From: a virus
DNA length: 28,553 nt
Virus record (IMG/VR): IMGVR_UViG_3300033153_015561
Span: 1 to 28,553 of that record
Strand: one strand, 5' to 3'
The notes beneath the pieces are model-generated. The model did not search any database. It was not told the origin of the DNA and was given only the letters and a program-made list of their open reading frames with translations. Below, piece by piece: positions 2,805-27,245 of the stretch. Each line of letters begins with the position of its first letter. Within the stretch, counting starts at the first letter, position 1. Made by a program: the position numbers and the translations under genes.

Positions 2805-4316
2805 ATGGCGAACATCGTGAAAGCGCACGTCCTCGGGGCGGATGAGAAGGCGGTTGACGCGGCCAGTCGGTCGACGCAGCTCCCGGAGGACACTTGGGAC
2901 TACGACAAGACCGGGGCGAAGGCGCCGCCTTACAACCTTGACGCTCTGGCGCACTTCCTGGAGATCAACACCTGGCATTACCGGTGTGTCAAGGCCAAGG
3001 CGATCAGCACCGCGGGACTCGGTTTTGACTTTATTGCGCCGGAGGGCGTGAAGGAACCGGACGCCGAGCACAAACGCAAGCTACAGGAGTTCTTCAACCA
3101 CCCGAACGACGAGATGACCTGGGGCGAGGTGCTGGAGAACGTGCTCACCGACTTCGAGGCGCTGGGCAACGGCTACTTCGAGGTGGTGCGCAACCGCTTC
3201 GGCCAGGGCCCTCCCAAGGCGATCTTTCATATTCCCGCGGTCACGATGCGGGTGCGCAAGGACAAGAAGGGTTTCATCCAGCAACGCGAGAACAAGATGG
3301 TCTACTTCAGGAACTTCGGGAGCGACCCCGCGGCCCCGGACTCGTTCGACCCGCGCGACCGCGACAAGACGAACGGCAAGCGCAAGCTCTTGAACGAGGT
3401 CATCCACCTCAAGAACTACCACCCGCGCTCGAGCTACTACGGCCTGCCCGACTTCCTGCCGGCGTTGCGAGCGCTCGTGGGCAACAAGAAGGCGGGCGAC
3501 TTCAACATCCAGTTCTTTGAGAACAACGCGGTACCGCAGTACGCGATCATCGTGAAGGGCGGTGAGCTGGCGCGCGGCACTCGCAAGCGCATCGAGGAAT
3601 ATTTCCGCACGCACATCAAGGGGGCGGCGCACAAGACACTGATCCTGGAGGTCGTGCAGGAGGAAGGCGAGAAGGTCGAGATCGAGATCAAGCCGCTCTC
3701 TGTGGACGTGAAGGACGCGTCGTTCCGAATGTTCCGCACGGACAACGCGGAGGAAATTCGCGTGGCGCACGGCGTGCCCGGGCGGCTGATCGGCCTCACC
3801 GAGAAAGGCGGCCTCGGCGGCGCGGGCGAGGGATCGACCCAGCAGGAGATTTTCAAGTACCACGTGATCGAACCGAAGCAGACGCGCCTCGAGTACCGCA
3901 TCAACAACTTCCTGGTCAACCGAGGGTTCGAGGTCAACGACTGGGAGCTTCGCTTCAAGGAGATCGACGTGACCGACGAGGCCAAGGTCGCGGAGATCAT
4001 CCAGAAGCTCGTGAAGCTCGGCGTGCTCACGATCAACGAGGGCCGGAGGCAGATGGGCCAGAAGCCGCTTGATCATCCCGGCGCGGACGTGCCGTTCATG
4101 ATGACCTCGATGGGGCCGCTATCGCTGGACACCCTTGCGCAAGGCGGCGTGCGGCCGCCGATGATGGGCGAGGAGCAAGGCAAGGCTTTGATTGATTCAC
4201 TGCTCACCTTGCAGGACGTAATCCGTGAGGAGATCAAGAAGCGGGGTCTGGACGCTGTGGATGAGCAAAGTGATAGCGATGTTTTGCTTCTCGCCGAAGC
4301 AGGAGGCGGAGGCTGA
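2805..4316 (+). CDS. Phage portal protein (PBSX/HK97-like)
   Basis: The portal forms the dodecameric ring at one capsid vertex, through which DNA is packaged and ejected, and to which the tail is joined. The 503 residues match the length of PBSX-type portals. Typical segments are the N-terminal ITWHYRCVKAKA-like helix near residue 52-65, the FEALGNGYFEVVRN region near 113, HPRSSYYGLPDFLPAL near 205-221, and the DNAEEIRVAHGVP segment near 310 that precedes the long C-terminal helices. AAGGGG lies 4 nt before ATG 2805. The stop overlaps the next gene (TGATG). No terminase gene precedes it in the window, which is unusual, because terminase normally lies directly upstream of the portal gene. Confidence 0.93.
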   Translation: MANIVKAHVLGADEKAVDAASRSTQLPEDTWDYDKTGAKAPPYNLDALAHFLEINTWHYRCVKAKAISTAGLGFDFIAPEGVKEPDAEHKRKLQEFFNHPNDEMTWGEVLENVLTDFEALGNGYFEVVRNRFGQGPPKAIFHIPAVTMRVRKDKKGFIQQRENKMVYFRNFGSDPAAPDSFDPRDRDKTNGKRKLLNEVIHLKNYHPRSSYYGLPDFLPALRALVGNKKAGDFNIQFFENNAVPQYAIIVKGGELARGTRKRIEEYFRTHIKGAAHKTLILEVVQEEGEKVEIEIKPLSVDVKDASFRMFRTDNAEEIRVAHGVPGRLIGLTEKGGLGGAGEGSTQQEIFKYHVIEPKQTRLEYRINNFLVNRGFEVNDWELRFKEIDVTDEAKVAEIIQKLVKLGVLTINEGRRQMGQKPLDHPGADVPFMMTSMGPLSLDTLAQGGVRPPMMGEEQGKALIDSLLTLQDVIREEIKKRGLDAVDEQSDSDVLLLAEAGGGG

Positions 4317-5182
4317 TGGAGACGGGCATCGCGGCGATGACTACTGCTGAACTGCAAGAGGCAGACGGCCTCATTATGGAGATCGTGGACGACCTGGGTT
4401 TCCGCAAGAGTCCGGAAACCGATGTCGAGCGGTTTCAGAGGCTTTATGCGAGTGCGCTGAGGAACGTCCTGGAAGGCCGCATCGCCGCAATCGAGTCCTT
4501 GGAGTTCGACCGCGAGTTAGGGCGCGTGATGGCCGAGGCAGAGCGCATCCTCGGGCCGGAATTGGCTGCGGAGATGGAACCGGTAACGCGGCGTTACATC
4601 GAGCGCTCTTTCGATGCCGGCCAGGCGGTTCGCGGTCTGGCGAAAAACATTCAGAAGGCGTTCAACGGGCCGAGGCCGGAAGCGGTGGAATGGCTAGTCC
4701 ACCACGACCGCTTCTGGCTCGGCAAGGTCTTTCCCGATCACGTGAGCGAGAGTTTCCGCGACACCATCGTGCAGGGACTTGCCGATGGCCTTGGCCGGAA
4801 GGCTATTGGCCGCCGTTTGCGCGACCTGATGGTCGGGACCCGTGAGGTTCCGGGCAAGATCGACCTTTACAACCGCGTGGCCGCGGCGAGCGTAAACCGC
4901 GCCAACAACTGGGGCGGGATGTTTTCGCTGGAGGCGGCGGGCGTTGACGAGTACATGTTCCGGGCGGTCATGGACGAGCGCACTTCCCGCATCTGCCGTG
5001 CGATGAACGGCCGCGTGTTTTCAGTGCCGCGCGTGATGAAGGTTGTAAGAAAGGCCCTGGACGGCCCGCCGAGCGCCATCGAAAAAATATCGCCGTGGCC
5101 GACGTACGACACGAAGCGCGGGGACTTCTTCATCGAGAGCGGCGGTCGGCGCAGCTACCTCAAGGGAAAATCCAGCGACTGA
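4316..5182 (+). CDS. Minor head protein, SPP1 gp7/Mu F-like
   Basis: This family sits near the portal inside or at the capsid vertex and takes part in head morphogenesis and DNA ejection. The first 190 residues are mainly helical. The diagnostic C-terminal part runs from about residue 185 to 275: RVAAASVNRANNWGGMFSL, EYMFRAVMDERTSRICRAM and NGRVFSV match the F-like domain. At 288 residues it is of usual size. The gene starts within the portal stop (TGATG), with GGAGGCGGAGG as ribosome site, so translation is coupled. It is followed after 16 nt by the multi-enzyme gene. Proteins of this family carry toxin or enzyme fusions in other phages, which is relevant to the neighbour's function. Confidence 0.88.
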   Translation: METGIAAMTTAELQEADGLIMEIVDDLGFRKSPETDVERFQRLYASALRNVLEGRIAAIESLEFDRELGRVMAEAERILGPELAAEMEPVTRRYIERSFDAGQAVRGLAKNIQKAFNGPRPEAVEWLVHHDRFWLGKVFPDHVSESFRDTIVQGLADGLGRKAIGRRLRDLMVGTREVPGKIDLYNRVAAASVNRANNWGGMFSLEAAGVDEYMFRAVMDERTSRICRAMNGRVFSVPRVMKVVRKALDGPPSAIEKISPWPTYDTKRGDFFIESGGRRSYLKGKSSD

Positions 5183-5198
5183 AGAGATGAGGCAACCG

Positions 5199-8100
5199 AT
5201 GGCTCAAGCCGAACAAGCCATGTTCGAGTTCGACCTGGATGCCGCGCCCGACGCGGCGCAGGTGGAGAAGCTCGACAAGGATCGCGACGTGCGTGAGAAG
5301 TGGGAAGTTGAAAGTGGGGAGTGGAAAGTGAAAGACGATAAAGATCACTCCTCACTTCCCACTTCTCACTCTCAACTCAAAGAGTACGCGGAAGTCCGGC
5401 CTTCGGGAGACAAGCTTGGCGAGCCGATCACGCTCGATGAGATATTACCTCACCTCAAGACTTTCAAGCTCCGGCAGCCTTACGTGTATCTGGTCGGCGG
5501 CCTGGTGATCCACGGCAAGACCGAGGGCGACATAGACATCCTGATCAAGGAATCGGAAGACATGCCGGACGAGTTCAGGCATGTGCTCGAATGGCGGATC
5601 ATGCGGAGCCTTCCAGAGAAATATTGGGACAGAGTCCAGTTCCATAGAGATAATTTTCACGGCCCCTTCACCGACAACGTGCCGCTCTATGACCTCACCA
5701 TTGAGCGCGTGAACGAGGACAACCGGGTCTTCCGCATGAACGCTGGCGCGGATGATGCGGACTTGGAGAAACAAGAACCGCGCGCTGCATCCCGCGAGCT
5801 TAAGCAACAAGCGGAGCGCTCGCGTGCCGAGGATAAGATAAAACTCATCCGGTTCTTTGTCCCAATGAAACCGGTCAAGGGGGCCTTTCCCGAACAAAGG
5901 CAGAGTGTCCAGGCGTTCCTGGACTTGTTCAAGGATGAGGACTTCCCTGTTCATTCGACCAAGAAGTTCGACGGCGCGAACTACGAGATTCACAAGTCGG
6001 GCGACCGAGTGGTCTTCTACTCCGAGGACGGCGAGGAGAACACGGAGCGCTTCCCAAGCATAGCGGAGGCCGTGCGCGAATTGCCTTGGCGCGACCTTGT
6101 TCTTCTTGCCGAGGTCGAGATGTGGCGCGATGGCAAGCACCTCCCACGCGAGGCGGTTACCGGCTACATCCACGAGAAGGGCGAGCCTGATGATTCCGAG
6201 TTGGTGGCGAACGTCTATGACGTGGTCTACGCGGCAGGCGGGCCGAAAGACGCAGGAGTTGATATTGACGCTGGCGATATCCACAAGCTCCCGTTCACCG
6301 AGCGAGAGAAGTACTTGAAGGCGCTCGGAATCGAGCAGGCAACGATGGGTGTGCCCGACACCAAGAAGAAGCTTAACCGCGTGGCCTCGTTAATTTCAAG
6401 CAACTTGAATGAACTTAAGAGGCACACCGAGGAGCTCGCGGCCAAGCCCGGCTCAGAGGGCAACGTGGCCAAGAAGGCGAACGAGCCTTATTTGCTCGAA
6501 GGCCGGAGCGAAACGCAGGTGAAGTTCCATAACTCCGCGGTGCTGGCAGGGATCGTAATCGAACGGATCGAGACCAAGACCAAGGGCACGTACAACTACC
6601 GTTACGGCCTGGGTCCGGGGAAGTACGAGCCGCACGAGAAAGACGCGGCTGAACTACATGCGAAGACCTACCTCGAGGCGGGCAAGACCTTCAGTACGAA
6701 CACCAAGGCCAAACCCGGCGACGTCATCGAGATCGAGGTCGAGACTTTGAACCTGGTGCGTTACCCGGACGGCACAGTGTCGGTAAGCGGCTGGGCCCCG
6801 AGAGTCATGGGCGTGCTCGAGGGCCGCAAGGAGCCTGACACGGTCGACCAGGCCGTTGCCGCGGCTAAGGAAGGCCGGGTGTTCCAGGAGAAGGAAATTA
6901 CCGAGGAGGGCGAGACGATGTATTTGAGTGGGGAGTGGGAAGTTGAAAGTGGGGAGAGCATGGAATCAATCACTTCTCACTCTTCACTTCTCACTTCCCA
7001 CTTTGACAAGGCGAACTACGTGGGCAACAAGCGGCGGCTCTCAAAGTACATCGTGGACAAGTTCCCTAATGACGGCAAGAGCATCTTCGACCCCATGTGC
7101 GGTTGCTCCGCGATCCTGATCGAGGCTGCAAAGCGCGGCTACCGCGTCAAGGGTAACGACCTCTCTATCGTGCCTTACTGGTACTCGAAGGGCGTATTCG
7201 AGGGTGCACAGCTCTCCGAGGCCGACATTGAGAAGCTTATCAATGCAACTCCTCACGACGGCTGGCTCATGACCGGATGGAAGGGAATGTATCCGCGCCC
7301 TCGGCCAATCCGGCGCTACCTGGACGGCCTGGCAAAGAAGGCCCGGCAGTGGCAGGGCGCTAAAGGCTGGGCGGCGAAGGCCGTGGTCTCGCGCGTGCTT
7401 CAAACACTCTACTCCGACTCGATCTCCGGCTACTCGACCATCCGTTACGAGTCGCAGGACGCGGTCAAACGCATCATCGAGCGATCGGCCAAGGAAGTGA
7501 ACGGCTTCATCGCCGAGGTCTCCGGCAAGGGCAAGGTCACAAACAACGACGCCAAGGCTATGCGCTACCCGCGCGCGGATGTGGTCTACTTCGACCCGCC
7601 GTTCTTCAAGCGCGACAAGGGTTACGTCCACTACTTCCAGAGCTACAGGATTATGAACTCGCTTCTCCTGGGCCGCGAGTGGAAGGAAGCAAATCTCAAG
7701 CCGGAAGACATCCCGCCGATCCTTGAGCGGCTGTGCAAGAGCTGCAAGCACATCTTCATCTCGACCAGCTCGAACGAGGTGGTGCCCTACGGCAAGGAGC
7801 TATCGCGCCACAAGCGGACCATGAAACGATACCGCGTGGCATATACCCAGACGAGCGGATTCGGATCGCGGGACGAGCACCAGCGCGAGCATCTGTATGT
7901 CGCTAAAGCGACAGTGGGAAGTGGAGAGTGCGAAGTGAGAAGTGAAAATCATAACATTTCCCACTCCTCACTTCCCACTTCTCACTCTGATCCGTATATG
8001 CGCTTGCCTTCGGAGGACAAGACTCACCGGTACGTTGTGCAAGAGCATTTCCGCGGCAAGTCCATGCACGCGGACTTTCGGATCGAGAGCGTTGGCAACG

Positions 8101-10193
8101 AAGACCTGATCGGCTGGACCCTGAACACGCTTATCAAGGGCGGGATCAAGGAGCCGGTCGAGACCGTGGCGCAGGCCAAGGCGCTCAAGACCAAGGACTA
8201 CTCCAAGATCGAGTGGGACACCGGCGAGTTCAAGAAGCGGCGCAAGGAAGGCGCGGAGGCGCTCGTGGACGTTGAGATAGTGAGCGAGCGCAAAGCGGTG
8301 GAGCCGCACGCCTGGCTCACCGTGGAGGGGGTGGTCAAGCCCGGGAGCGTGGGAGCCACCAAGGATTATCCCGGCGTGTTCCGGATCGTTGACAAGGGCG
8401 TGTGCGAGTACGGCTCGCAAAAGCCCTGGTTCCACGAGTACTTCCCAAGCTCGGACAAGAGCAAGGGCGGGTTCCGGTATCGCATCTTCTTCAGGCAACT
8501 CCGCGTTGCCGACATCAAGGGCGAAGAGGAAAAGGCTCTCTCGCCTGAACTCTTGAAGGAGTACATCGCACACGACCCGGATATCGAGCGCGAGGACTGG
8601 GACGAGGGTTACTGGGAGTTCCTGAAGACCAAGGGCGAAGTCGTCCTGCCGGCCGCCGAGACCAAGTTCCGCAGTGAGGCGGCCTGGCTTCTTATCAAGC
8701 CAATTGACCAGACGCCTTACGTGCTCTCCGATGGCGCGGTGGAGAAGGAATGGGTTCCGCCGAAAGGATTCTCGGCGCTACCGAAGGCAGTCCGCTCCAA
8801 GGTGCCTCAAGACTTCCGCTACTGGCAGATGGAGCGCGAGTCCGAACGGCGCGAGATGCGGGATGCGCTTGTCAGCGCAGTTGAAAGTGGGGAGTTGAAA
8901 GTGAGTAGTGATGATTCACTTCGCATTCCCGACTCTCAACTCTCGACTTTTGAAAAACGCAGGCGTGTGCCCTTCAACCAGTGGGGCGGCTCGTCAAAGT
9001 ACGCGGCGGCACTTGCCAAGCGACTGCCGGAGCACAAGCGTTACGCAGAGCCTTTCTGCGGGAGCGCCGCTGTGTTCTTTGCCAAAGAGCCTTCGGAGAG
9101 TGAGTTGCTCGCAGACACCGATCCCGAAGTCGTGTTCGCACTGCGCTACATCCAGCGTTTAAGCAAACAAGGATTCGAGGCGCTCAAGCGTTTCCCCTGG
9201 ACAGTCTCTCGTGCGGGCTTCGAGCGGGTGAAGAAGTGCAAGCCAAGTTCGGACGCGGAGCGCTTCTGGAAGCACGTTTACAGCAGGCAGTGCACCTGGG
9301 GCGGCAAGCCTAAGGCGAGCGGCTTTTCCACGATCAGCGACGGCAAGACCTACACCCTGGACGACCTGTGGCGCTTCAAGGAAAGACTCAAGGGCGCACG
9401 CATCGTAAACCAGGACTGGAGGAAGACGCTCACCGAGTGCGACGGTGCTGACACGCTCTTCTTTATCGACCCGCCTTACGTGGACGAGTGGGCGCACGGC
9501 GACGGCATCCCGCCCGAGGAGATCGCCGAGTCAGTTGCAAAGCTCAAGGGCGAGTTCGTGGTGGTCTACACGGACTCGGCCCGGGCGAGGCGCGCTCTTT
9601 CCAAGGCCGGGCGGCTGTTCAAGATGAAAATTCCGGAGACACGGCACAGGGGCCTGTGGCAGAAGCGGAACAGGTTATTCGTGGCATCCGCCGGCATTAA
9701 GAAGAGCGCAGACATGGAGTGGATCGAGCTTGCGGATAGTTCGGCCCGCTTCGTTCTCCAGTACCACTACTTCAGGAAGCGCGGCAAGAAGCCGGTGCGC
9801 TCCGGCCCGACCACGTGGCATTACGATCTGCGCATTGACGCGGGCGAGAAGTCGCTCCGACACTGGGTTCTCGATCATAACATAACGAAAGCCAAGGAGA
9901 CTGTCGGCTACTTCAAGCGGGACACAGATAAGCGCGCGCTCGAGGCCGAGGGATTTTACCCACCCGGGTCGTTCATGAACCCTACCAAGGACACCCCTTC
10001 GTTCATTGAGATCGTGGACAAGGGCGAGTGCCGCATCCTGGTGGATCAACCCGCGCTGGTGAAGATCGAGTACAAGGGCAAGTCGCTAAAAGGCGTGTGG
10101 CTCCTGGAGAAGAAGAACTCCAACTGGCACGTGCATCGCACCCAAGCCGCGCCGCGCGTCGAGAAACAGGAGGCAGTCGCATGCTCCCCGTGA
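5199..10193 (+). CDS. Giant multi-enzyme protein: ligase, two MTases, two PE-like domains
   Basis: Domains in order (about 1664 residues): (1) nucleotidyltransferase-like, 62-215, with YLVGG (to G101) and GDIDIL (D111, D113); (2) ATP-dependent DNA ligase, 225-445, with KFDG (Lys256 the expected AMP acceptor), LAEVEMW, VYDVVY, EGNVAKK (420-426) and QVKFH (K442), then an OB-fold region to about 555; (3) adenine methyltransferase, 603-905, with DPMCG (D631) and DPPF (799-802); (4) LigD 3'-phosphoesterase-like region from 931, with H950, H957, D959; (5) D12-type adenine methyltransferase, 1252-1505, with EPFCGSAAVFF and DPPY (1424-1427); (6) second phosphoesterase-like region, 1506-1664, with H1523, H1541, D1543. 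Four linkers (32-61, 577-602, 906-930, 1228-1251) are in-frame copies of the intergenic hairpin. ATG 5199 has GAGG 6 nt upstream; 5187 is the alternative. It overlaps the protease gene by 13 nt. Its role is inferred: DNA end or nick repair plus protective methylation, perhaps capsid-associated. Confidence 0.85.
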   Translation: MAQAEQAMFEFDLDAAPDAAQVEKLDKDRDVREKWEVESGEWKVKDDKDHSSLPTSHSQLKEYAEVRPSGDKLGEPITLDEILPHLKTFKLRQPYVYLVGGLVIHGKTEGDIDILIKESEDMPDEFRHVLEWRIMRSLPEKYWDRVQFHRDNFHGPFTDNVPLYDLTIERVNEDNRVFRMNAGADDADLEKQEPRAASRELKQQAERSRAEDKIKLIRFFVPMKPVKGAFPEQRQSVQAFLDLFKDEDFPVHSTKKFDGANYEIHKSGDRVVFYSEDGEENTERFPSIAEAVRELPWRDLVLLAEVEMWRDGKHLPREAVTGYIHEKGEPDDSELVANVYDVVYAAGGPKDAGVDIDAGDIHKLPFTEREKYLKALGIEQATMGVPDTKKKLNRVASLISSNLNELKRHTEELAAKPGSEGNVAKKANEPYLLEGRSETQVKFHNSAVLAGIVIERIETKTKGTYNYRYGLGPGKYEPHEKDAAELHAKTYLEAGKTFSTNTKAKPGDVIEIEVETLNLVRYPDGTVSVSGWAPRVMGVLEGRKEPDTVDQAVAAAKEGRVFQEKEITEEGETMYLSGEWEVESGESMESITSHSSLLTSHFDKANYVGNKRRLSKYIVDKFPNDGKSIFDPMCGCSAILIEAAKRGYRVKGNDLSIVPYWYSKGVFEGAQLSEADIEKLINATPHDGWLMTGWKGMYPRPRPIRRYLDGLAKKARQWQGAKGWAAKAVVSRVLQTLYSDSISGYSTIRYESQDAVKRIIERSAKEVNGFIAEVSGKGKVTNNDAKAMRYPRADVVYFDPPFFKRDKGYVHYFQSYRIMNSLLLGREWKEANLKPEDIPPILERLCKSCKHIFISTSSNEVVPYGKELSRHKRTMKRYRVAYTQTSGFGSRDEHQREHLYVAKATVGSGECEVRSENHNISHSSLPTSHSDPYMRLPSEDKTHRYVVQEHFRGKSMHADFRIESVGNEDLIGWTLNTLIKGGIKEPVETVAQAKALKTKDYSKIEWDTGEFKKRRKEGAEALVDVEIVSERKAVEPHAWLTVEGVVKPGSVGATKDYPGVFRIVDKGVCEYGSQKPWFHEYFPSSDKSKGGFRYRIFFRQLRVADIKGEEEKALSPELLKEYIAHDPDIEREDWDEGYWEFLKTKGEVVLPAAETKFRSEAAWLLIKPIDQTPYVLSDGAVEKEWVPPKGFSALPKAVRSKVPQDFRYWQMERESERREMRDALVSAVESGELKVSSDDSLRIPDSQLSTFEKRRRVPFNQWGGSSKYAAALAKRLPEHKRYAEPFCGSAAVFFAKEPSESELLADTDPEVVFALRYIQRLSKQGFEALKRFPWTVSRAGFERVKKCKPSSDAERFWKHVYSRQCTWGGKPKASGFSTISDGKTYTLDDLWRFKERLKGARIVNQDWRKTLTECDGADTLFFIDPPYVDEWAHGDGIPPEEIAESVAKLKGEFVVVYTDSARARRALSKAGRLFKMKIPETRHRGLWQKRNRLFVASAGIKKSADMEWIELADSSARFVLQYHYFRKRGKKPVRSGPTTWHYDLRIDAGEKSLRHWVLDHNITKAKETVGYFKRDTDKRALEAEGFYPPGSFMNPTKDTPSFIEIVDKGECRILVDQPALVKIEYKGKSLKGVWLLEKKNSNWHVHRTQAAPRVEKQEAVACSP
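5293..5379 (+). repeat. Heptad hairpin repeat H1 (in frame, coding)
   Basis: The GA-rich arm is built from 7-bp units such as GTGGGAA and GTTGAAA. A short loop and a CT-rich arm complementary to it follow. It is read in frame as residues 32-61 of the multi-enzyme protein, with a W/E/V/S/G/K-rich half and an S/T/H/L/P-rich half. Confidence 0.85.
6928..7002 (+). repeat. Heptad hairpin repeat H2 (in frame, coding)
   Basis: It has the same architecture as H1. It encodes residues 577-602 of the multi-enzyme protein, exactly between the ligase/OB part and the first methyltransferase domain. An ATG lies just upstream at 6918, after GAGGAGG, so an internal start is imaginable. Confidence 0.85.
7914..7987 (+). 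repeat. Heptad hairpin repeat H3 (in frame, coding)
   Basis: It encodes residues 906-930, between the first methyltransferase and the first phosphoesterase-like domain. Several TGA triplets occur in the GA arm, but all are out of the coding frame. Confidence 0.85.
8880..8950 (+). repeat. Heptad hairpin repeat H4 (in frame, diverged)
   Basis: It encodes residues 1228-1251, between the first phosphoesterase-like region and the D12 methyltransferase. It is the most diverged intragenic copy: the arms still show GTTGAAA and GTGGGGA units against CTCAACTCTCGACTT. It may be the oldest of the four. Confidence 0.75.
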
Positions 10194-11407
10194 ACTTCGA
10201 GTACCCGGTCGAGATCGCCAAGGCCTACGAGGAAGAGGGCAACTGGATTGTGGAGGGCTACGCGGCCACATCCGACTTCGACATGCAGGAGGACATCATC
10301 ACCCAGGACGCGATCAAAGGCTCGGCCAAGGACCTCGTGGAGAACTCGACCGTGCTTCACAACCACAACCCGGACGAGGCCGTCGGTCGGGTGCTTCAGT
10401 CCAAAGCCCGCAAGGGCGGCCTGTTTTTGAAGATATTGATCTCGAAGACCGTGCCCGACATCTGGCAGCAGGTCAAAGAAGGCGTGCTCAACAAGTTCTC
10501 GGTGCGCGGGAAGATATTGGAGGCGCGCAAGGAGTGGGTGCCGAAGCTCAAAAAGTACGCGCGGCTCATTCTCAAGATGCGGCTGGTGGAGGTTTCGCTC
10601 GTGGCCGTGCCGGCCAACCCCAAGGCGCGAGCGATCAACTGGTACGTGGAGAAGGCGCTGGACGAGTTCGAAAAGGCCGGCGGCCAAATCGATACGGCTA
10701 AAGGAGGAACGGAAATGGAAAACGAAGACGTAACTGTGGAAGAGGAACTGTTGGAAGCGTCCGGCGAGCCGAACTTGACCGGAGAGCCGGATTCAACCGA
10801 CACGGAGGGCAAGGCGAACGATTACCCGTACCCGAAGCCCAACGCTCAAGGCGGCGCTCGAATGAAACAGATCATCAGCCTCGTGGATAAGCTCATCGCG
10901 GGTGAGAAGGACGAGGGCCGCAAAAAGATTCTCGCGCAAATCAAACAGATCGCGCAAGGCGCGTTAAGCGCTTACCCGAAACCTTCGGCCAAGAAGGACG
11001 AGAACGAGGAAGGCGCGGGCCCAGAAGCGGAAACGGATGCGGAGAAGGCTGGGCGAAAGATATCAGGCTCGCGGCTCGCTCGCCTGAAGAAGCTCATGGA
11101 AGAGCTGAAAGGCTTTATCGAGGAGGTTGACGCTTCCGAGCAAAACGACAAGAAGGCCGACGCGGGCAAAGGCGATCAAGACAAGCTCACGGAGATCGAA
11201 GGACTTGTCAACAAGATCGCCAAGGTGCTCGGCATCAGCGAGAAGTCGGACGCGGACAAGGCTCCCAACCTGACCGAAACAGTCCAGGACCTTACCAAGC
11301 GGCTTGACGCGCTCGAGGGCGCGCCCGGCGAGCGCACATCGCTCGACGGCCAGGAAGGAATGCCCGGCGAGAAGAACTCCAAGTCGCTCTGGAAGGGACT
11401 GGTATAG
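10181..11407 (+). CDS. Prohead serine protease fused to scaffold domain
   Basis: This is an HK97-type prohead protease, which cleaves scaffold and capsid delta domains during maturation. The protease domain covers about residues 1-175. HNHNPDEAVGR (H60) carries the expected catalytic histidine and EVSLVAVPANPKA (S139) the expected serine. The remaining 230 residues are highly charged, with long helices such as ARLKKLMEELKGFIEEV, as in scaffolds. ATG 10181 is chosen because AGGAGG lies 7 nt upstream; reading further upstream would only extend into the preceding gene's other frame. It overlaps the multi-enzyme gene by 13 nt, so the two are probably coupled. An internal start gives a separate scaffold (see 10715). 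Confidence 0.88.
   Translation: MLPVNFEYPVEIAKAYEEEGNWIVEGYAATSDFDMQEDIITQDAIKGSAKDLVENSTVLHNHNPDEAVGRVLQSKARKGGLFLKILISKTVPDIWQQVKEGVLNKFSVRGKILEARKEWVPKLKKYARLILKMRLVEVSLVAVPANPKARAINWYVEKALDEFEKAGGQIDTAKGGTEMENEDVTVEEELLEASGEPNLTGEPDSTDTEGKANDYPYPKPNAQGGARMKQIISLVDKLIAGEKDEGRKKILAQIKQIAQGALSAYPKPSAKKDENEEGAGPEAETDAEKAGRKISGSRLARLKKLMEELKGFIEEVDASEQNDKKADAGKGDQDKLTEIEGLVNKIAKVLGISEKSDADKAPNLTETVQDLTKRLDALEGAPGERTSLDGQEGMPGEKNSKSLWKGLV
10715..11407 (+). CDS. Nested in-frame scaffold protein (C/Nu3-like arrangement)
   Basis: Inside the protease gene, AAAGGAGG at 10700-10707 lies 7 nt before an in-frame ATG at 10715. That is as good as any ribosome site in the operon and sits exactly at the junction between the protease domain and the charged region. 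Translation would give a 230-residue acidic, helix-rich protein (MENEDVTVEEELLE onward) suited to an internal capsid scaffold. Lambda C/Nu3 is the known precedent for a scaffold nested in the 3' part of a protease gene. Both products are predicted; neither is demonstrated. Confidence 0.7.
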   Translation: MENEDVTVEEELLEASGEPNLTGEPDSTDTEGKANDYPYPKPNAQGGARMKQIISLVDKLIAGEKDEGRKKILAQIKQIAQGALSAYPKPSAKKDENEEGAGPEAETDAEKAGRKISGSRLARLKKLMEELKGFIEEVDASEQNDKKADAGKGDQDKLTEIEGLVNKIAKVLGISEKSDADKAPNLTETVQDLTKRLDALEGAPGERTSLDGQEGMPGEKNSKSLWKGLV

Positions 11408-11431
11408 GCGGAAGCTAAAAGGAGGATGAAG

Positions 11432-12382
11432 ATGGATCAGAACGAGTTATTGCAAAAGGCGCTTGAGACCGCGGACCTGATCGCGGGCGGCGGCGACCTG
11501 AACCCCGAGCAGTCGGAGAAGTTCATAACCTATCTCCACGACCTCTCGGTGATGGCCAAGGACGCGCGGCTCATCCCGATGAAGGCCAAGAAGCGCGAGA
11601 TCAACAAGATCGGCGTCGGCCGGCGCGCGAGCGTTCCCGCCACCGAGGGCGCTGACCCGGGCGTGCGGCAGAAGCCGACCTTCTCGAAGGCGGTGCTCGA
11701 CACGATCGAGATCATGACGCCGTTCGAGATCACCTACGACGTGTTCGAGGACAACATCGAGGGCGACAACCTGGAGGACTCGATCATCAAGTTGTTCGCC
11801 ACCCAGATCGCGACGGATCACGAGGAGCTTTACATCATGGGCGACACCGCATCGACCGACCCATACCTCTCGCTTATCGACGGGTGGCGTAAGTTGGCTC
11901 ACTCCGGCGGACACGTTTGCGACCACAAGGGCGCTGGCGTTGTTGTTGACATTCTGGCCAAGCTCTTGGACGGCATGCCCGAAAAGTATCTGCGCGACTA
12001 TGCGGACCTGCGCTTCTACGTGAGCCCGAGGTTCGAGCACGCCTACAAGAAGATTCTCGGGCAGAGGCCCACGCCGGCAGGCGACAAGTTCCTGCTCACG
12101 GAAACGCCGGCGACCTACGCGGGCATACCGCTCACGCGCGTGCCCATGATCCCGTCCAACCTGTCGGCGACCATCGACGGCACCACTTACAACGGCCTCA
12201 CCTTCGTGATCCTCACACTCAGGAAGAACCTCATCACCGGCATCCACCGGCAGATGAGCCTCGAGCGCGACAAGAACATTTTCGCGCGGATGAGGCAGTA
12301 CGCTTTCACGAGCCGCGTGGACTGCACCTACGAGGAGGTCGACGCGGTGTGTTTGGCAGAAAACATCTCGTCGATATCGTAA
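11432..12382 (+). CDS. Major capsid protein (HK97 fold)
   Basis: This protein forms the icosahedral shell. Its place directly after the protease/scaffold gene is the standard order. In the 316 residues, the helical N-terminal portion (to about 65) resembles a delta or N-arm. The FEITYDVFEDNIEGDNLEDSIIKLFATQIATDHEELYIMGD stretch (about 95-140) matches the long spine helix and P-domain start, and LRFYVSPRFEHAYKK (about 195) and GIPLTRVPMIP match the A-domain and its approach. AAGGAGG lies 6 nt before ATG 11432, so this is preferred over ATG 11426, which directly abuts the Shine-Dalgarno. Codon use is GC-rich like its neighbours. Confidence 0.88.
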   Translation: MDQNELLQKALETADLIAGGGDLNPEQSEKFITYLHDLSVMAKDARLIPMKAKKREINKIGVGRRASVPATEGADPGVRQKPTFSKAVLDTIEIMTPFEITYDVFEDNIEGDNLEDSIIKLFATQIATDHEELYIMGDTASTDPYLSLIDGWRKLAHSGGHVCDHKGAGVVVDILAKLLDGMPEKYLRDYADLRFYVSPRFEHAYKKILGQRPTPAGDKFLLTETPATYAGIPLTRVPMIPSNLSATIDGTTYNGLTFVILTLRKNLITGIHRQMSLERDKNIFARMRQYAFTSRVDCTYEEVDAVCLAENISSIS

Positions 12383-12393
12383 AGGAGCGATGA

Positions 12394-13107
12394 ATGAGCG
12401 CGACAGTAAATGTGCGTTGTCCGGTGTGTGAGGGACAAGGGCTCCCAATCTCGGACACGGGCACTGCCCAAAAGTGCGAGACCTGCAGCGTGTTTTTTAA
12501 GAACCCGCGTCCTTCAATGGGCAAGTTGATAAAGGAGCGGGACAAAGGGTTTGGCGGAGCGTTAACCGCCGACCACGCGGCGACAAGGCGTTCGGATGCA
12601 GAGGCTGCGATCCAAGCAATGCGGGGTTACCACCTGCTAGTCTCGGGCAAGGACGCGCCGCTAAATGCATTCGACAAGCGGGTGCTCGATATAGGTTGCG
12701 GCCTCGGTTTCAAGCTCCGCGAGTTCGAGAAGTACGGCTGGAGCGCTAGCGGTATTGAGCCGAGTGAAAACGCAAGAGAGTACATGCACGCCACCATGCT
12801 GCATGTAACCGATTATGGCCTTAGAGAAAAGCCGTTCGACTTGATCCTGGTGGAAGACGTGATCGAAGAGGTGGACAAGCCCAAGAACCTCGTAGCATTC
12901 ATAAAGGAATCGCTCTCACCACAAGGTGTCCTCTACGTGGCCGTGTCTTTGCGCGAAGGCGGCGAACCGAAGTCCATACCCAAGAACAAGATTTATCTTT
13001 TCAACGAGGACTCGCTCCGCAAGCTCTTCATGCAAGCAGGCTTTGCCGAGCCGCACGTGAAAACCGAAAGCAAGCTCCGCCTTTGGTTCAAGCATAAGAG
13101 GAAGTAG
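12394..13107 (+). CDS. Zinc-ribbon class I SAM-dependent methyltransferase
   Basis: The N-terminus carries two CxxC pairs (C9/C12 and C28/C31), a probable zinc ribbon. A Rossmann-type methyltransferase domain follows: RVLDIGCGLGF (about 96-106) is motif I, GIEPSENAREY is the acidic-residue strand, and FDLILVEDVIEEVDKP is the region after strand 4. This layout is common in methyltransferases acting on sugars or small molecules, so DNA is not the obvious substrate. It lies between capsid and connector genes, with AAGGAG 6 nt before ATG 12394, and is cotranscribed with them. It is an unusual extra gene in a head operon. Modification of a virion surface glycan or of the capsid are guesses only. 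Confidence 0.8.
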   Translation: MSATVNVRCPVCEGQGLPISDTGTAQKCETCSVFFKNPRPSMGKLIKERDKGFGGALTADHAATRRSDAEAAIQAMRGYHLLVSGKDAPLNAFDKRVLDIGCGLGFKLREFEKYGWSASGIEPSENAREYMHATMLHVTDYGLREKPFDLILVEDVIEEVDKPKNLVAFIKESLSPQGVLYVAVSLREGGEPKSIPKNKIYLFNEDSLRKLFMQAGFAEPHVKTESKLRLWFKHKRK

Positions 13108-13128: not shown

Positions 13129-13776
13129 ATGTACGCCAGCGTTCAAGACATGCGAGACCGTGGGGCGGATGAGACATCGGCAGACGATGCCGCGGTGGAA
13201 CAGGCGCTCGCCCGGGCCACGGTGGTGATTGACGCCTTTTGCAGCCGCGACTTCTGGAAGCGCGAGAAGATTTACAAGCTGGACGGCAAGGGCAAGGCAG
13301 CGCTCTTTCTGGACGACCGGCCCGTGATCAAAGTTAGCAGGTTGAAAGTTGATGGACAGGTCGTGCAGTCGAAAAGCTACGTCGTTTACAACAATGCTGG
13401 ATACATCCGGCTGAACGACGGCTTTTCGATCTTCGCATACCGTTCGGGCGTGTTCCCCGAGGGAGTGCAGAACATCGAGGTGCACGGGTTTTTCGGTTAC
13501 GAGGAGCCGCCGCCGGAAGTGAAGGAAGCGTGCATTCTGCTCGCGCTCGCGATCCTTCGATCCAGGCAAGCCGAGGCGAACGTCACCGAGTCGCAGGCGA
13601 ACACAACGGCCAAGGCCGTCGGCATCAAGCGAGTGAAGATTGACGACCTGTCGGTCGAGTACGAGTACCCGCGCGAGGTGGGGGTCGGCGCGGAGAAGAA
13701 GCGCACCACCGGCCTCGTGGAAGCGGACCGCTTGCTCGTGCGCTACCGGCGAGACCTGGAGGCGATGGCGGTATGA
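13129..13776 (+). CDS. Head-tail connector, gp6-like adaptor
   Basis: The first 60 residues (MYASVQDMRDRG, then EQALARATVVIDAFCSRDFW) are the helical start typical of HK97 gp6-like adaptors, which form a ring below the portal. The middle is beta-rich (KVSRLKVDGQVV, YVVYNNAGYIRL). PPPEVKEACILLALAILRSRQ near 125-150 is the conserved helix. YRRDLEAMAV is the C-terminal end. The gene is 216 residues from ATG 13129, with AAGGA about 10 nt upstream. ATG 13120 is 9 nt earlier, but only 1 nt from that Shine-Dalgarno. Its stop TGA fuses to the first unit of hairpin H5. Confidence 0.75.
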   Translation: MYASVQDMRDRGADETSADDAAVEQALARATVVIDAFCSRDFWKREKIYKLDGKGKAALFLDDRPVIKVSRLKVDGQVVQSKSYVVYNNAGYIRLNDGFSIFAYRSGVFPEGVQNIEVHGFFGYEEPPPEVKEACILLALAILRSRQAEANVTESQANTTAKAVGIKRVKIDDLSVEYEYPREVGVGAEKKRTTGLVEADRLLVRYRRDLEAMAV

Positions 13777-13863
13777 GTGGGGAGTGGAAAGTGGGAAGTG
13801 GAAAGTGAAAGAGGTGAAGATGAATTCCAAACACTCCACACTTCCCACTTCTCACTTCCCACT
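13777..13863. repeat. Heptad hairpin repeat H5 (intergenic)
   Basis: The GA arm begins at the stop codon of the connector gene (TGA-GTGGGG). The CT arm ends in CACTTCCCACT, then GCGAGCGACTGAAGGGAG provides the ribosome site of the next gene. Confidence 0.9.
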
Positions 13864-14298: not shown

Positions 14299-14855
14299 TG
14301 TCCGGCGAAGGCAAGTACGGCGAGTGGAAAAAGCTCCAGGACATCATGGAGGGCTTTGACAAGCGCCTTCACAGCAACGCGGGGAAGGCGCTACTCCGAA
14401 CCGGTGAAGAACTCGCCTCGGACATCCGCGAGCGCATCTTGGACGGCAAGGACATGGCCCCGCTGCACGGCTTCACCATCGAGCAGAAGGGATCGAGTAA
14501 GCCGCTCATTGACGACGGCGACCTGCTCGGTTCCGTAGGGGTGCGCTTCATCCCTGCCTGCCGCGCCGGACGCGGCGCAGGCAGGGAGGACCTTGCCGTG
14601 ATCGTGGGCGTCCACCGTAAGGCCGAGGACGGCACTGACCTGGCGGCTCTCCACGAGCGCGAGGAAGGCGCGCGCGTACCGGTAACGCCCAAGATGAGGG
14701 CCTACTTACATGCGAGGGGATTCCACTTGAAGCCGGAGACGACAGAGTTGTTCATCCCAGGCAGGCCGTTCATGAAGCCCGCTTACGAGGACTTCAGGGA
14801 CAGGAGAGCGGCGGAGGACATCGTGGTGCAGTTCGTGGAGGAGACGCTTCGCTGA
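14298..14855 (+). CDS. Virion morphogenesis protein, Mu gpG-like
   Basis: The family acts in head-tail joining or tail completion. The sequence shows LIDDGDLLGSVGVRF near residue 72-86, then an AVIVGVHRKAEDG strand, ALHEREEG and IPGRPFMKPAYEDF near the C-terminus; the last matches the 'iPaRPFl' motif typical of the group. AAGGAGA is 7 nt before ATG 14298, which overlaps the upstream stop. Residues about 85-97 are coded by a GC-rich palindrome (see 14551) and read ACRAGRGAGRED, which does not look like native protein and may be an in-frame insertion. The stop TGA fuses to hairpin H6. Confidence 0.75.
   Translation: MSGEGKYGEWKKLQDIMEGFDKRLHSNAGKALLRTGEELASDIRERILDGKDMAPLHGFTIEQKGSSKPLIDDGDLLGSVGVRFIPACRAGRGAGREDLAVIVGVHRKAEDGTDLAALHEREEGARVPVTPKMRAYLHARGFHLKPETTELFIPGRPFMKPAYEDFRDRRAAEDIVVQFVEETLR
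14551..14587. repeat. GC-rich palindrome inside the gpG-like gene
   Basis: TCCCTGCCTG pairs perfectly with CAGGCAGGGA, and an inner CCGCG pairs with CGCGG around CCGGA, leaving a 2-nt bulge. The 37-bp structure is unlike the heptad hairpins. It resembles REP-type palindromes, but here it is in coding sequence. Confidence 0.75.
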
Positions 14856-14937
14856 GTGGGAAGTGGGAAGTTGAAAGTGAGAAGTGAAGAACTCATTCAC
14901 TTTCCACTTCTCACTCCCCACTCCTCACTTCCTACTG
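14856..14937. repeat. Heptad hairpin repeat H6 (intergenic)
   Basis: The arm starts at the stop codon of the gpG-like gene. TGA appears again just after the right arm (CCTACTG-TGA-GCGACTG), which could be a 3-bp target duplication. The conserved CGACTGAAAGGAG ribosome site follows. Confidence 0.9.
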
Positions 14938-14958
14938 TGAGCGACTGAAAGGAGCGAA

Positions 14959-15498
14959 ATGGAGGAGAACGTATTCACCGAGATCGAGATGGCTCTCAAG
15001 CAGGGCCTCGAGGACCCGGCCAATGTGTCGCTCGGCGGCCACCCCGTTCCGGTGCGCATCGTGACACCCGACCCCGACTTGGTGGAGTTAACGCTCCCGG
15101 TGACCACGCTCCAGCTAATTGACGTGCGCCGCGCTCCCAAGCGAGCGTTCAATGAGTTCGATGTCGAGACGGACATGGAGAACGGCACGGCCAAGGTCGC
15201 CTGGCCCGAGGAGCCTTACGATATGCACTACACCGTGCGAGGGCACACCGAATCCGCCCGGCAGGACCGGCTCCTGCTCGGCCAGTACATCAGGTTCGTG
15301 GACGCGCACCCTGTGCTGGTCGGATCAAGCGGCCGCAAGTTCTACCTGGCGCGGACACTCTCGTTCCGGGACAGGAGCGATGGGCGTTCGTTCCAGAAAG
15401 CGCTCACGTTCGTGGTGAAGGCAAGGTTGCCGGTGGGCATTGAAAAGACGGTGCCCATAGCGACAGAGCGCAAAATAGTTGTGAGTGGTGAGTTATGA
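14959..15498 (+). CDS. Probable tail terminator/completion protein
   Basis: This 179-residue protein directly precedes the sheath gene, the usual place of the tail terminator in contractile phages. It begins with a helix (ENVFTEIEMALKQGLEDP), then alternates strands and turns (VPVRIVTPDPDLVELTLPVTTLQLIDVRRAP, YDMHYTVRGHTESARQDRLLLGQYIRFVDAHPVL). The LLLGQYIRF helix suits the terminator fold, but I recognise no named family with certainty. CGACTGAAAGGAG is 5 nt upstream of ATG 14959. The last residues (VVSGEL) and the stop are encoded by hairpin H7, so its C-terminus has been altered by the repeat. Confidence 0.55.
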   Translation: MEENVFTEIEMALKQGLEDPANVSLGGHPVPVRIVTPDPDLVELTLPVTTLQLIDVRRAPKRAFNEFDVETDMENGTAKVAWPEEPYDMHYTVRGHTESARQDRLLLGQYIRFVDAHPVLVGSSGRKFYLARTLSFRDRSDGRSFQKALTFVVKARLPVGIEKTVPIATERKIVVSGEL

Positions 15499-15558
15499 GT
15501 AATGAGTTAAGAAAAAAACATCTCTTACTCAAAACTCACAACTCAGAACTCAAAACTT
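15481..15558. repeat. Heptad hairpin repeat H7 (variant sequence)
   Basis: The arms use GAGTTATGAGTAATGAGTT and CTCAAAACTCACAACTCAG-type units, more AT-rich than the other copies, but with the same place and shape. It overlaps the last 18 nt of the upstream gene and supplies its stop codon. CCGACTGAAAGGAGG follows. Confidence 0.75.
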
Positions 15559-18022: not shown

Positions 18023-18481
18023 ATGCCGAACGCGAGAGTAGACCCGTTTCCGAGATACAACTTCCTGGTCGAGATCGACGGCATCCGGCGCGCGGGCTTT
18101 ATGACCTGCTCCGGTCTCGAGGAGGAGACCGAGGTGCGCGAGTACCGCGAAGGCGGCGACAACACGACCGTGCGGAAACTCGCCGGCCTTAACTCGTACG
18201 CTCCCATCGTGCTGGAGATGGGATCGATTGCGGACGCCGAGCTTTGGGAATGGCGGCAGCGTATCAAGCGCGAGGGCGCTCAGGGCAACCGCAAGGCCAT
18301 CACCATCATCCAGCAGAACGAAGCGCGCGAGGAGGTCAAGCGCTGGCTGGTGCTTGACGCTTGGCCGTCCAAGTTCACCGCGCCGGAGTTCGATGCGAGC
18401 TCGTCGGACAACGCGGTCGAGTCGGTGGAGATTCAGCACGAGGGCCTGCAACTCACCGTGCGCCCGGCGGCGTTCGCATGA
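18023..18481 (+). CDS. Tail tube protein (T4 gp19-like)
   Basis: The protein stacks as rings to make the inner tube. PRYNFLVEIDGIRRAGFMTCSGLEEETEVREYREGG and the FDASSSDNAVESVEIQHEGLQL strand are typical of the gp19-like tube proteins shared by T4-like phages and contractile injection systems (Pvc1/Afp1 group). The 152 residues fit that family. AAGGAGG lies 6 nt before ATG 18023. It is separated from the sheath gene by the antisense toxin-antitoxin operon and has no obvious promoter of its own, so read-through from upstream is likely. The stop TGA fuses to hairpin H8. Confidence 0.92.
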   Translation: MPNARVDPFPRYNFLVEIDGIRRAGFMTCSGLEEETEVREYREGGDNTTVRKLAGLNSYAPIVLEMGSIADAELWEWRQRIKREGAQGNRKAITIIQQNEAREEVKRWLVLDAWPSKFTAPEFDASSSDNAVESVEIQHEGLQLTVRPAAFA

Positions 18482-18580
18482 GTGTGGAGTGGGAAGTGAG
18501 GAGTGTGGAGTGAGGAGTGAAAAGAAAGATAAATTCTCAATCACTTCCCACTTCCCACTTCCCACTTCTCACTTCCCACT
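18482..18580. repeat. Heptad hairpin repeat H8 (intergenic)
   Basis: This long copy starts at the tube gene stop. The GA arm (GTGTGGA and GTGGGAA units) and CT arm (CACTTCC units) are about 38 nt each. CCGACCGAAGGGAGG, the ribosome site of the next gene, follows. Confidence 0.9.
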
Positions 18581-18991: not shown

Positions 18992-19230
18992 CCGAGGAGG
19001 TACGCCGCGCGGTCTTCCATATCGCGGGTCTCCTTCCGATCGTGAAAGCCTTCGACTGGCGCATGGAGCCGGTACGCAGGGAGATCGCGATCATCGCTTA
19101 CCACTTTCACTGGAGCCGCGCCGAGTGCATGGCCTTGTCGCGCCGTGAAAGAACTGCGTGGATCGAGGAGATCAAACGGATCAACAAGCAAGTGTGGAGT
19201 GGGAAGTGGGGAGTGAGAAGTGGGAAGTGA
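18982..19230 (+). CDS. -1 frame extension of the tail assembly chaperone
   Basis: After slippage the product continues RGLTEEVRRAVFHIAGLLPIVKAFDWRMEPVRREIAIIAYHFHWSRAECMALSRRERTAWIEEIKRINKQ, giving a total of about 208 residues. The EIAIIAYHFHWSRAECMAL...RERTAWIEEI segment resembles the small protein found after the chaperone in related contractile tails (DUF6760-type, by memory). The only independent start is GTG 19042, which lacks a ribosome site, so frameshifting is preferred. The last residues (VWSGKWGVRSGK) and the stop come from hairpin H9. Confidence 0.75.
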   Translation, partial: RGLTEEVRRAVFHIAGLLPIVKAFDWRMEPVRREIAIIAYHFHWSRAECMALSRRERTAWIEEIKRINKQVWSGKWGVRSGK

Positions 19231-19296
19231 GCGGTGAGAAGTTTGAAGTGAATATTTTCACTCCTCACTTCTCACTTCCAACTCCACACTCACTTC
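19192..19296. repeat. Heptad hairpin repeat H9 (overlaps two genes)
   Basis: The GA arm encodes the end of the frameshift product. The CT arm, read on the minus strand, runs into the stop of the four-helix-bundle gene (CTGAAGTGA). A further single arm lies on the other side of that gene at 19691-19725. Confidence 0.88.
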
Positions 19297-22255: not shown

Positions 22256-22354
22256 GTGGGAAGTGGGGAGTGAGAAGTGAGGAGCATGAAGAAGTGAGAA
22301 GTGAATCGGGGTTCTTGATCTTCACTCCACACTTCCCACTTCTCACTTTCCACT
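22256..22354. repeat. Heptad hairpin repeat H10 (intergenic)
   Basis: It begins at the tape measure stop codon. The right arm ends in TTTCCACT, then GCGAGCGACTGAAAGGAGC, the same junction sequence as after H5. Confidence 0.9.
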
Positions 22355-22378: not shown

Positions 22379-23200
22379 ATGGTCAAAGGCTCGATCACGC
22401 CGGTGGAGCCGGAAGGCGATCCCATCCTCTTCGAGTACAACCCTTCCGAGTTCGAGGTGACCAAGGAAGTCGGCTGGGCCGAGATCGGCGTGCCCGGACT
22501 CGACTATCCACTGCAGCAGTTTATCCGCGGCCACCTGAAGAGCATGAACGTGGAGGCATACCTCAACCGCGACCATTACGACCGCGCTTATGATGTGCGC
22601 GCCGCGGTCGAGGCTTTGGAATCGTTGATCGAGAGCACGGCCAAGACCGGCGCGCCGCCGGTGTGCATCTTTCATTGGGGCAAGTTCGACTTCGTGTGCG
22701 TGGTGGGAGCGGTCTCCACGAGTTACACCATGTTCGACTCGGATGGCGACGCCATCGAGGCGACCGTGCGATTGGCCTTGCGGCGCTACGTGGAGAAGGA
22801 CGTGTCGTTCAAACCGCCCCGCCAGGAGGTCGCGCTGCCGCTCCCACGCCAGGCGCAAAAGCCCGTGTTTGAGGGATGGCAGAAAGGTTCAGGCTCGATC
22901 TTCTCGCCGCCCGAGGAAGGCACCGTTACCAAGGCCCAGGCGCTGGTCGAGCAGGGCGAGACGCGCTCGCACCTGGTCGAGTTGGGTGACACCTTCCAGA
23001 GCCTCGCAACCAAGCACTTCGGCGACCCGTCTCTCTGGCGCGTGATCGAGTTCGCAAACCGCAACCGCCGCATGGCCGACAACCTGCGCGACATCGGCTC
23101 CGGCAAGCGCTTCATTATACCCGACATCGAGAACGCGCTCGGCATCATCGAAGGCGTCACCAACTTCCCACCCGAGGTGCGCGAAAGAAGTTGGAAGTGA
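22379..23200 (+). CDS. LysM-containing baseplate/hub protein (Afp7/Pvc7-like)
   Basis: This 273-residue protein has an N-terminal region (EGDPILFEYNPSEFEVTKEVGWAEI) typical of the protein linking tube and hub in contractile injection systems and related phages. A C-terminal LysM-type domain covers about residues 195-255 (HLVELGDTFQSLATKHFGDPSLWRVIEFANRNRR, GSGKRFIIPD). AAAGGAGC is upstream of ATG 22379, after the CGACTGAAAGGAG junction. It lies between tape measure and gpD, the standard place. The last three codons (SWK) and the stop come from hairpin H11, so the original C-terminus has been changed. Confidence 0.85.
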   Translation: MVKGSITPVEPEGDPILFEYNPSEFEVTKEVGWAEIGVPGLDYPLQQFIRGHLKSMNVEAYLNRDHYDRAYDVRAAVEALESLIESTAKTGAPPVCIFHWGKFDFVCVVGAVSTSYTMFDSDGDAIEATVRLALRRYVEKDVSFKPPRQEVALPLPRQAQKPVFEGWQKGSGSIFSPPEEGTVTKAQALVEQGETRSHLVELGDTFQSLATKHFGDPSLWRVIEFANRNRRMADNLRDIGSGKRFIIPDIENALGIIEGVTNFPPEVRERSWK

Positions 23201-23276
23201 GAAGTGGGGAGTGGAAAGTGATGAGGATAAATAATTCATATTTCACTTCACACTATCAACTTCTCACTCCCCACTT
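23190..23276. repeat. Heptad hairpin repeat H11 (ends one gene, starts the next)
   Basis: The left arm supplies the stop of the LysM protein gene and the purine-rich ribosome site, and the loop holds the ATG (23221) of the gpD-like gene. The right arm is coding in the gpD-like frame as HYQLLTPHF. There is no CGACTGAAAGGAG element here. Confidence 0.85.
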
Positions 23277-24384: not shown

Positions 24385-24463
24385 GGAGTAGAAAGTGAGA
24401 AGTGAATATCAATGATCTTATTCTTCACTCCACACTTCCCACTTCCTACTTCCCACTTCCAAC
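24374..24463. repeat. Heptad hairpin repeat H12 (intergenic)
   Basis: The first units encode the last residues and stop of the gpD-like gene (GSEK-stop). The right arm ends in CTTCCAACT, followed by GCCGACCGAAGGGAGG before the spike gene. Confidence 0.9.
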
Positions 24464-24484
24464 TGCCGACCGAAGGGAGGCTAA

Positions 24485-25107: not shown

Positions 25108-25186
25108 GTGAGTGGGAAGTTGGAAGTGGAAAGTGGGAAGTGTGCGAAATCAATCACTCCACACTCCTCACTTCTCACTCCCCACT
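25108..25186. repeat. Heptad hairpin repeat H13 (intergenic)
   Basis: It begins 3 nt after the spike stop (TGA-TT-GTGAGTGGG). The right arm ends in CTCCCCACT, followed by GCCGACTGAAAGGAGG, the usual junction sequence. Confidence 0.9.
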
Positions 25187-27177: not shown

Positions 27178-27245
27178 AATTCAATTTTTTTCCCCGAGAT
27201 TGACCCTTTTTTCACCGCCAGGGGGCCTATTTATAAGTAGAGGGG
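27178..27245 (+). promoter_or_regulatory. Leader element copy C
   Basis: This is a near-identical copy of the element after the recombinase: T-tract, CCCCGAGATTGACCC, T6, CACCGCCAGGGGG and CCTATTTATAAGTAGAGGGG. The CCTAT-TT-ATAGG palindrome has one mismatch here. It precedes the gp25-like gene, directly downstream of the antisense HEPN cargo. Confidence 0.55.

Follow-up and report, generated by a model that had tools for sequence, protein, structure and literature searches.

A giant gene for several enzymes lies between viral head genes

The stretch of DNA analysed here (the window), an IMG/VR virus record, is 28,553 bases long. In it a serine recombinase gene is followed by genes for a portal protein, a Mu-F-like protein, a giant protein, an S78 prohead protease and a capsid-like protein, and then by tail genes (Table 1). 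Adaptor, sheath, tube, tape measure and hub proteins are encoded after the capsid-like protein, and the window proteins scanned included no recognisable terminase. The recombinase-portal order also occurs in one relative (L005). Pfam and PHROG matches agree with an earlier, sequence-only reading that placed the giant gene between a gp7/Mu-F-like minor head gene and the prohead protease gene. In the window the last two are separate genes, which overlap by 13 nt because the protease ATG (10181) precedes the stop codon of the giant gene. This overlap is kept in six contigs (the window and L004-L008).

The giant gene encodes a protein of 1,668 or 1,664 amino acids, depending on whether the ATG at 5187 or that at 5199 is used. 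Its domains are, in order, nucleotidyltransferase-like (NTase), ATP-dependent DNA ligase, amino-methyltransferase (MTase1), phosphoesterase-like (PE1), Dam/D12 adenine methylase (MTase2) and a second phosphoesterase (PE2). That they share one uninterrupted frame, as first read, was confirmed: five independent contigs retain the whole frame, and their products are colinear with that of the window at 90% (L004), 81% (L005) or 71% (L006-L008) identity. All of the domains are under purifying selection, with dN/dS values of 0.06-0.22 in each of the six when the window is compared with L004, L005 and L006. The break in the frame that the sequence-only reading had named among possible refutations was not seen, and the intact frame in five other contigs together with the low dN/dS rules out a frame error or chimera.

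Table 1. Features of the window
Feature	Position	Strand	Basis or remark
Portal protein	2805..4316	+	Pfam, PHROG
Mu-F/gp7-like minor head protein	4316..5182	+	Pfam, PHROG
Giant multienzyme ORF	5187..10193	+	ATG 5187 or 5199, TGA 10193; full length kept in L004-L008; purifying selection
In-frame palindromic heptad element 1	5292..5379	.	At the site of a ~55-aa helical segment in L005-L008
Pol-beta-superfamily-like nucleotidyltransferase (probable)	5379..5768 (aa 61-190)	+	DxD; model resembles MNT NTases, Pol beta
ATP-dependent DNA ligase: adenylation domain and OB-like tail	5817..6908 (aa 207-570)	+	Pfam, profile against PDB, motifs
In-frame palindromic heptad element 2	6927..7004	.	Absent from L004, L005, L009
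DNA amino-methyltransferase 1	7005..7904 (aa 603-902)	+	DPMCG..., DPPF; PHROG
In-frame palindromic heptad element 3	7906..7988	.	Shared with L004, near-identical DNA
PE1, LigD-type phosphoesterase-like, with C-terminal extension	7995..8873 (aa 933-1225)	+	Profile, motif, Pfam LigD_N in L042
In-frame palindromic heptad element 4	8872..8950	.	Diverged copy in L004
DNA adenine methyltransferase 2, D12/Dam type	8949..9713 (aa 1251-1505)	+	DPPY, Pfam, PHROG
PE2, LigD-type phosphoesterase	9726..10178 (aa 1510-1660)	+	HYDLR motif retained in window
Prohead protease, S78 family (weak XkdF match), then scaffold-like tail	10181..11407	+	ATG overlaps stop of giant ORF by 13 nt
Capsid-like structural protein	11426..12382	+	phrog_1623
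Intergenic heptad hairpins	13776-13863, 14848-14938, 15477-15555, 18481-18580, 19191-19290, 22255-22354, 23189-23277, 24366-24464, 25111-25186		

Three further features of the window were recorded. Genes for two more SAM-dependent methyltransferases are present (12394-13107 and 27772-28473), one of them in the head operon immediately after the capsid gene. Direct repeats of 60 bp that are 95% identical (2497-2556 and 27185-27244) lie on either side of the phage module, with a partial third copy at 2668-2705; they may mark the ends of this module or represent a duplicated regulatory sequence. Finally, a 39% GC (low-GC) patch holds a minus-strand gene for an LA2681-type HEPN protein with TPR repeats (25466-27043), possibly a cargo or defence gene, which PADLOC did not recognise.

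Domain assignments

Searches with each segment upheld the ligase, methyltransferase and phosphoesterase assignments, and the sequence-only reading of the domains proved correct nearly throughout. The predicted ATP-dependent ligase, with its KxDG and EGxVAKK motifs (the latter fitting EGxVxK), matches Pfam PF01068 (E 1.5e-13) and has a C-terminal OB-like part. Its family profile retrieves archaeal and human DNA ligases from the PDB (E 4e-22), with LigD ligase domains ranking lower. Among 61 aligned relatives, the lysine of KxDG is conserved in 57 and the EG pair in 57-58.

Two adenine methylases had been proposed. MTase2 is one, since it carries DPPY and matches D12/Dam PF02086 (E 1.5e-22); MTase1 is supported as a DNA methyltransferase (DPPF; PHROG match, E 1e-7), adenine specificity being shown for MTase2 alone. 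The N-terminal domain is probably a nucleotidyltransferase, as the first reading had it. The DxD of its GG..GDxDxL motif is kept in all 44 sequences, the third acidic residue is not conserved in L014 and L015, and a predicted model of low confidence (pLDDT 61) bears a weak resemblance to the MNT/Pol-beta fold (Z ~7). Comparison of the NTase profile with the PDB gave no meaningful match.

The two LigD-type phosphoesterase-like regions were likewise borne out. Searched with its family profile, PE2 finds the archaeal LigD phosphoesterases 3p43/3p4h (E ~1e-8). A predicted PE1-PE2 model from the relative L016 (pLDDT 80) has exactly six PDB matches at E <0.001, all of them LigD-type phosphoesterases, and reaches a VIA-align Z of 15.9 to LigD PE structures in alignments whose rows cover PE2 only. 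For PE1, a profile of 11 sequences found nothing in the PDB, and one of 42 sequences was required before these two LigD PEs appeared as the best matches (E 0.0015 and 0.0087). In that alignment 'yvvqeHfrGksvHaDlrie' stands opposite 'FVVQEH-HARRLHWDLRLE', so that the H and the H-x-D-x-R (H950 and H957-x-D959-x-R961 in the window) are aligned. Pfam LigD_N matches PE1 of L042 at E 0.0011, under the family cut-off, and the hhalign probability between PE1 and PE2 is 18%, or 70% with 42 sequences. The PE1 motif residues and the ligase lysine are more than 90% conserved across the 61-70 aligned relatives.

Inteins prefer conserved sites of DNA-acting proteins. An intein-like insertion, recognised by an intein C-terminal profile, interrupts the ligase of L044, and others interrupt PE1 at several distinct conserved motifs: after RGK (L050, L027), before WL (L063), after AQK (L071) and in the equivalent region of L083. 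Judged from sequence, these positions would fit active enzymes.

Relatives share a core and are often fused to the head-maturation protease

A scan with the whole protein recovered 17 viral contigs, and a scan with the PE1 profile recovered 64. The core NTase-ligase-PE1-PE2 is shared by some 64 contigs from uncultured viruses of bacteria and archaea, and the domain order is shuffled around it: the core recurs while the methylases vary in position and number, and some relatives have acquired AAA ATPase or C5-methylase parts. ANMV-1 is the only named phage record with the ligase-PE module among 50,697, and six matching contigs were found among 84,980 bacterial and archaeal genomes, in MAGs labelled Planctomycetota, Dehalococcoidia, Thermoplasmata, Archaeoglobales, Alkanophagales and one bacterium. 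No relative was found on plasmids. The open-access literature searched contained nothing on LigD-type domains in capsid operons and no discussion of the ANMV-1 ligase.

The search for homologues near portal genes that had been suggested along with the first reading placed a recognisable portal or MuF gene upstream in 22 of the 40 loci with enough flanking sequence. In 25 of the 64 non-redundant loci, a count that includes truncated contigs and rests on our own profiles with Pfam backing in the scanned cases, the chain runs on as one polypeptide into an XkdF head-maturation protease (PF14550 at the polypeptide end, E as low as 3e-30). Protease activity of XkdF in these relatives is assumed from the family. 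The gene order in L014 and L019 is terminase, portal, MuF, the fused enzyme-XkdF gene, scaffold-like and capsid. Neither the protease fusion in relatives nor the four in-frame palindromic elements described below formed part of the sequence-only reading.

The motif EKQ is 12-fold enriched in the linkers of the family relative to domain interiors, partly through common descent, and its C-terminal copy coincides with the AGGAGG that precedes the protease start. Linker EKQ is a possible protease cleavage site, an idea that draws no support from the other head proteins examined, where the motif is absent. In L009 (659-4573) the first part of the giant protein is fused directly to the prohead protease, which may reflect a real deletion or an assembly chimera. 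Beside the giant gene of L014 lies one (3157-7026) for a MuF-like minor head protein, 1,289 aa in length, whose long C-terminal regions are unassigned; it is likely another polyvalent protein.

Comparison with known systems

Bacterial LigD, the POL-PE-LIG protein of NHEJ, resembles the giant protein in combining a ligase, a 3'-phosphoesterase and a nucleotidyl-adding module in one chain. Unlike LigD, the viral protein has a Pol-beta-like NTase in place of POL, two PEs, attached methylases and, in relatives, an attached protease, and no accompanying Ku gene. No Pfam or NCBIfam match to a primase-type POL domain was found in the window protein or the relatives scanned, and LigD models align with its ligase part only.

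Archaeal stand-alone LigD-type phosphoesterases (PDB 3p43, 3p4h, 5dmp) correspond to PE2 in fold and sequence and to PE1 in motif. They differ in that the viral PEs are in tandem or split by a methylase inside a polyprotein, and the H-to-H loop is one residue longer in PE1, which also carries a long extension at its C-terminus. The ANMV-1 'ATP-dependent DNA ligase' (KP703175, AJP62006) has the same NTase-ligase-PE1-PE2 arrangement right after the portal gene, whereas the methylases of the window protein and a fused protease are missing from it. That portal gene (KP703175.1:1913-3193) is annotated 'MutT-like phage hydrolase', probably a misannotation; it matches portal PF06381 at E 3e-22.

In organisation the protein parallels polyvalent proteins such as P1 DarB and MuF-fused effectors. 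As described in passages of Iyer et al. (2017; PMC5512222), these are giant chains of unrelated enzymes, including adenine methyltransferase and Pol-beta-type NTase, encoded beside portal or MuF genes with the domain order shuffled between relatives. The giant gene shares with them several unrelated enzymatic domains and a phage location next to portal/MuF. It departs from them in its attachment to the prohead protease in relatives and in its core of DNA ligase and LigD phosphoesterase, which does not occur in those passages of PMC5512222; the passages there on ligases concern RNA ligases and leave XkdF unmentioned. An MTase-helicase dyad and other LPDs are signatures of that class; a SWI2/SNF2 or other helicase was not detected by Pfam, PHROG or NCBIfam, libraries that do not include the full LPD profile set. 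The protein would act like LigD yet, without a POL domain, is not LigD; it fits best among the polyvalent proteins, as a new kind.

A possible virion-borne system for repairing and marking incoming DNA

On its way into the cell phage DNA may suffer nicks, blocked ends or cuts, and little is known of how this damage is mended before host nucleases get to it. Phosphoesterases of this family clean 3' ends, ligases seal, methylases mark bases and nucleotidyltransferases transfer nucleotides. We lean, at slightly better than even confidence, towards a virion-borne protein that heals, seals and methylates the genome at entry. It would be made alongside the head proteins and would most likely end up inside the procapsid together with the maturation protease, covalently in the XkdF-fused relatives and through a neighbouring, translationally coupled gene in the window. 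Once injected, or while still in the head, the LigD-type phosphoesterases would convert blocked 3' ends (3'-phosphate, 3'-ribonucleotide) to 3'-OH; addition or exchange of nucleotides would fall to the NTase and sealing of nicks, gaps or joined genome ends to the ligase, and the methylases would mark incoming DNA against restriction at adenine and perhaps another base. The sequences themselves show the domain content, its constraint, the place in the head operon and the fusion to the protease in relatives. Packaging, proteolytic release, injection, timing and substrates are what we infer from this arrangement, and protection from host nucleases would be its presumed outcome.

The joining of these enzymes to the protease or its gene makes the procapsid their most natural location. 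Phage polyvalent proteins are proposed, in passages of PMC5512222, to be packaged and injected, and in giant phages the prohead protease cleaves ejection proteins (PMC5694885); procapsid placement taken with these precedents would favour a role at entry. The XkdF fusion and the recurring position in the head operon give real but indirect backing to the packaging hypothesis of the sequence-only reading, under which the protein may instead be vertex-associated and may act on entry or during packaging. The overall reading also draws on the domain assignments, catalytic motifs held across 44-70 relatives, purifying selection, the 13-nt overlap with the protease gene, the sole ATP ligase noted below, and additional end-processing domains of some relatives (metallo-beta-lactamase in L025, L030 and L042; 2H phosphodiesterase in L040 and L053). 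On the other side, the giant gene of the window is separate from the protease gene, no Ku is encoded, the ligase has no N-terminal DNA-binding domain, H-x-D-x-R is gone from PE2 in the protease-fused forms, 39 of the 64 loci, some of them truncated contigs, lack the fusion, and the narrow profiles used recognised no portal or capsid gene near many archaeal-type relatives.

The ligase of the giant protein is the only ATP ligase detected in 18 of 21 longer viral records, none of which yielded an NAD ligase, and it may therefore have a general role in replication or repair. Together with the separate gene in the window, this would suit a late-phase intracellular enzyme whose substrate is phage DNA, concatemeric or damaged, ahead of packaging or in its course, and which stays out of the virion, the operon position setting only its timing. 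We consider this unlikely, if a serious contender, because a covalent protease fusion in 25 loci is odd for a freely acting replication enzyme and because the position between MuF and protease recurs. Protease fusion would equally bring the relatives' enzymes into the procapsid if they merely kept the duplex continuous during packaging and were then degraded by the protease and lost. Such nick repair seems very improbable, as it would require ATP and SAM in the head during packaging, and methylation could equally occur earlier, in the cell.

Among solved folds, the NTase model comes closest to MNT antitoxins, which AMPylate HEPN toxins, and the Pol-beta NTases of polyvalent proteins are proposed, in passages of PMC5512222, to modify proteins. 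An anti-defence protein can be imagined that works mainly by protein modification: its NTase would AMPylate proteins of the host, its methylases would block restriction, and its ligase and PEs would undo damage by defence nucleases. This reading is improbable, given a weak match to a low-confidence model, and the NTase shares an ORF with the ligase in 34 of the 64 loci, which favours a nucleic-acid role.

If virion carriage at entry is correct, a ligase-phosphoesterase joined to the prohead protease would be a direct answer to damage on entry for many uncultured viruses; it would bring DNA end repair within the range of polyvalent proteins and point to fusion with the capsid protease as a way of loading enzymes into capsids. 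More tentatively, and at somewhat less than even confidence, these proteins may represent widespread, undescribed LigD-like end-joining machines of uncultured bacterial and archaeal viruses, taken into the capsid either attached covalently to the head-maturation protease or as its close partner, that repair and/or circularise and methylate the genome on entry without Ku. Ku (PF02735) is absent from the 21 viral records, several of which may be fragments, and could be supplied by the host.

Palindromic heptad elements occupy domain linkers

Hairpins built of AGTGRRR heptads occur in most gaps between the later phage genes of the window, and four lie in frame at linkers of the giant gene. Their presence varies even between relatives that are 90% identical, and element 2 occurs in the window only. 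The DNA of elements 1 and 3 hardly differs between the window and L004, with almost no synonymous change, although flanking synonymous divergence is 0.3-0.8. The helical segment of about 55 residues found elsewhere at the site of element 1 is widespread in the family. The corresponding linkers of L005-L008 are ordinary, which indicates that the insertions are younger than the fusion of the domains. We had also considered that the elements are fossil intergenic spacers through which separate genes became fused; this is ruled out, since L005-L008 share the fusion without the elements. Since 3 does not divide 7, a perfect array of heptads encodes one and the same cycle of residues whichever frame is read, and should be tolerated more easily.

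Rickettsia palindromic elements are likewise palindromic and in frame. Like them and the heptanucleotide-repeat elements of Geobacter, found between and inside genes (PMC2700814), the window hairpins are repeats that lie both between and within genes. They differ in being a phage AGTGRRR heptad hairpin with four copies in a single ORF, each of them at a domain linker.
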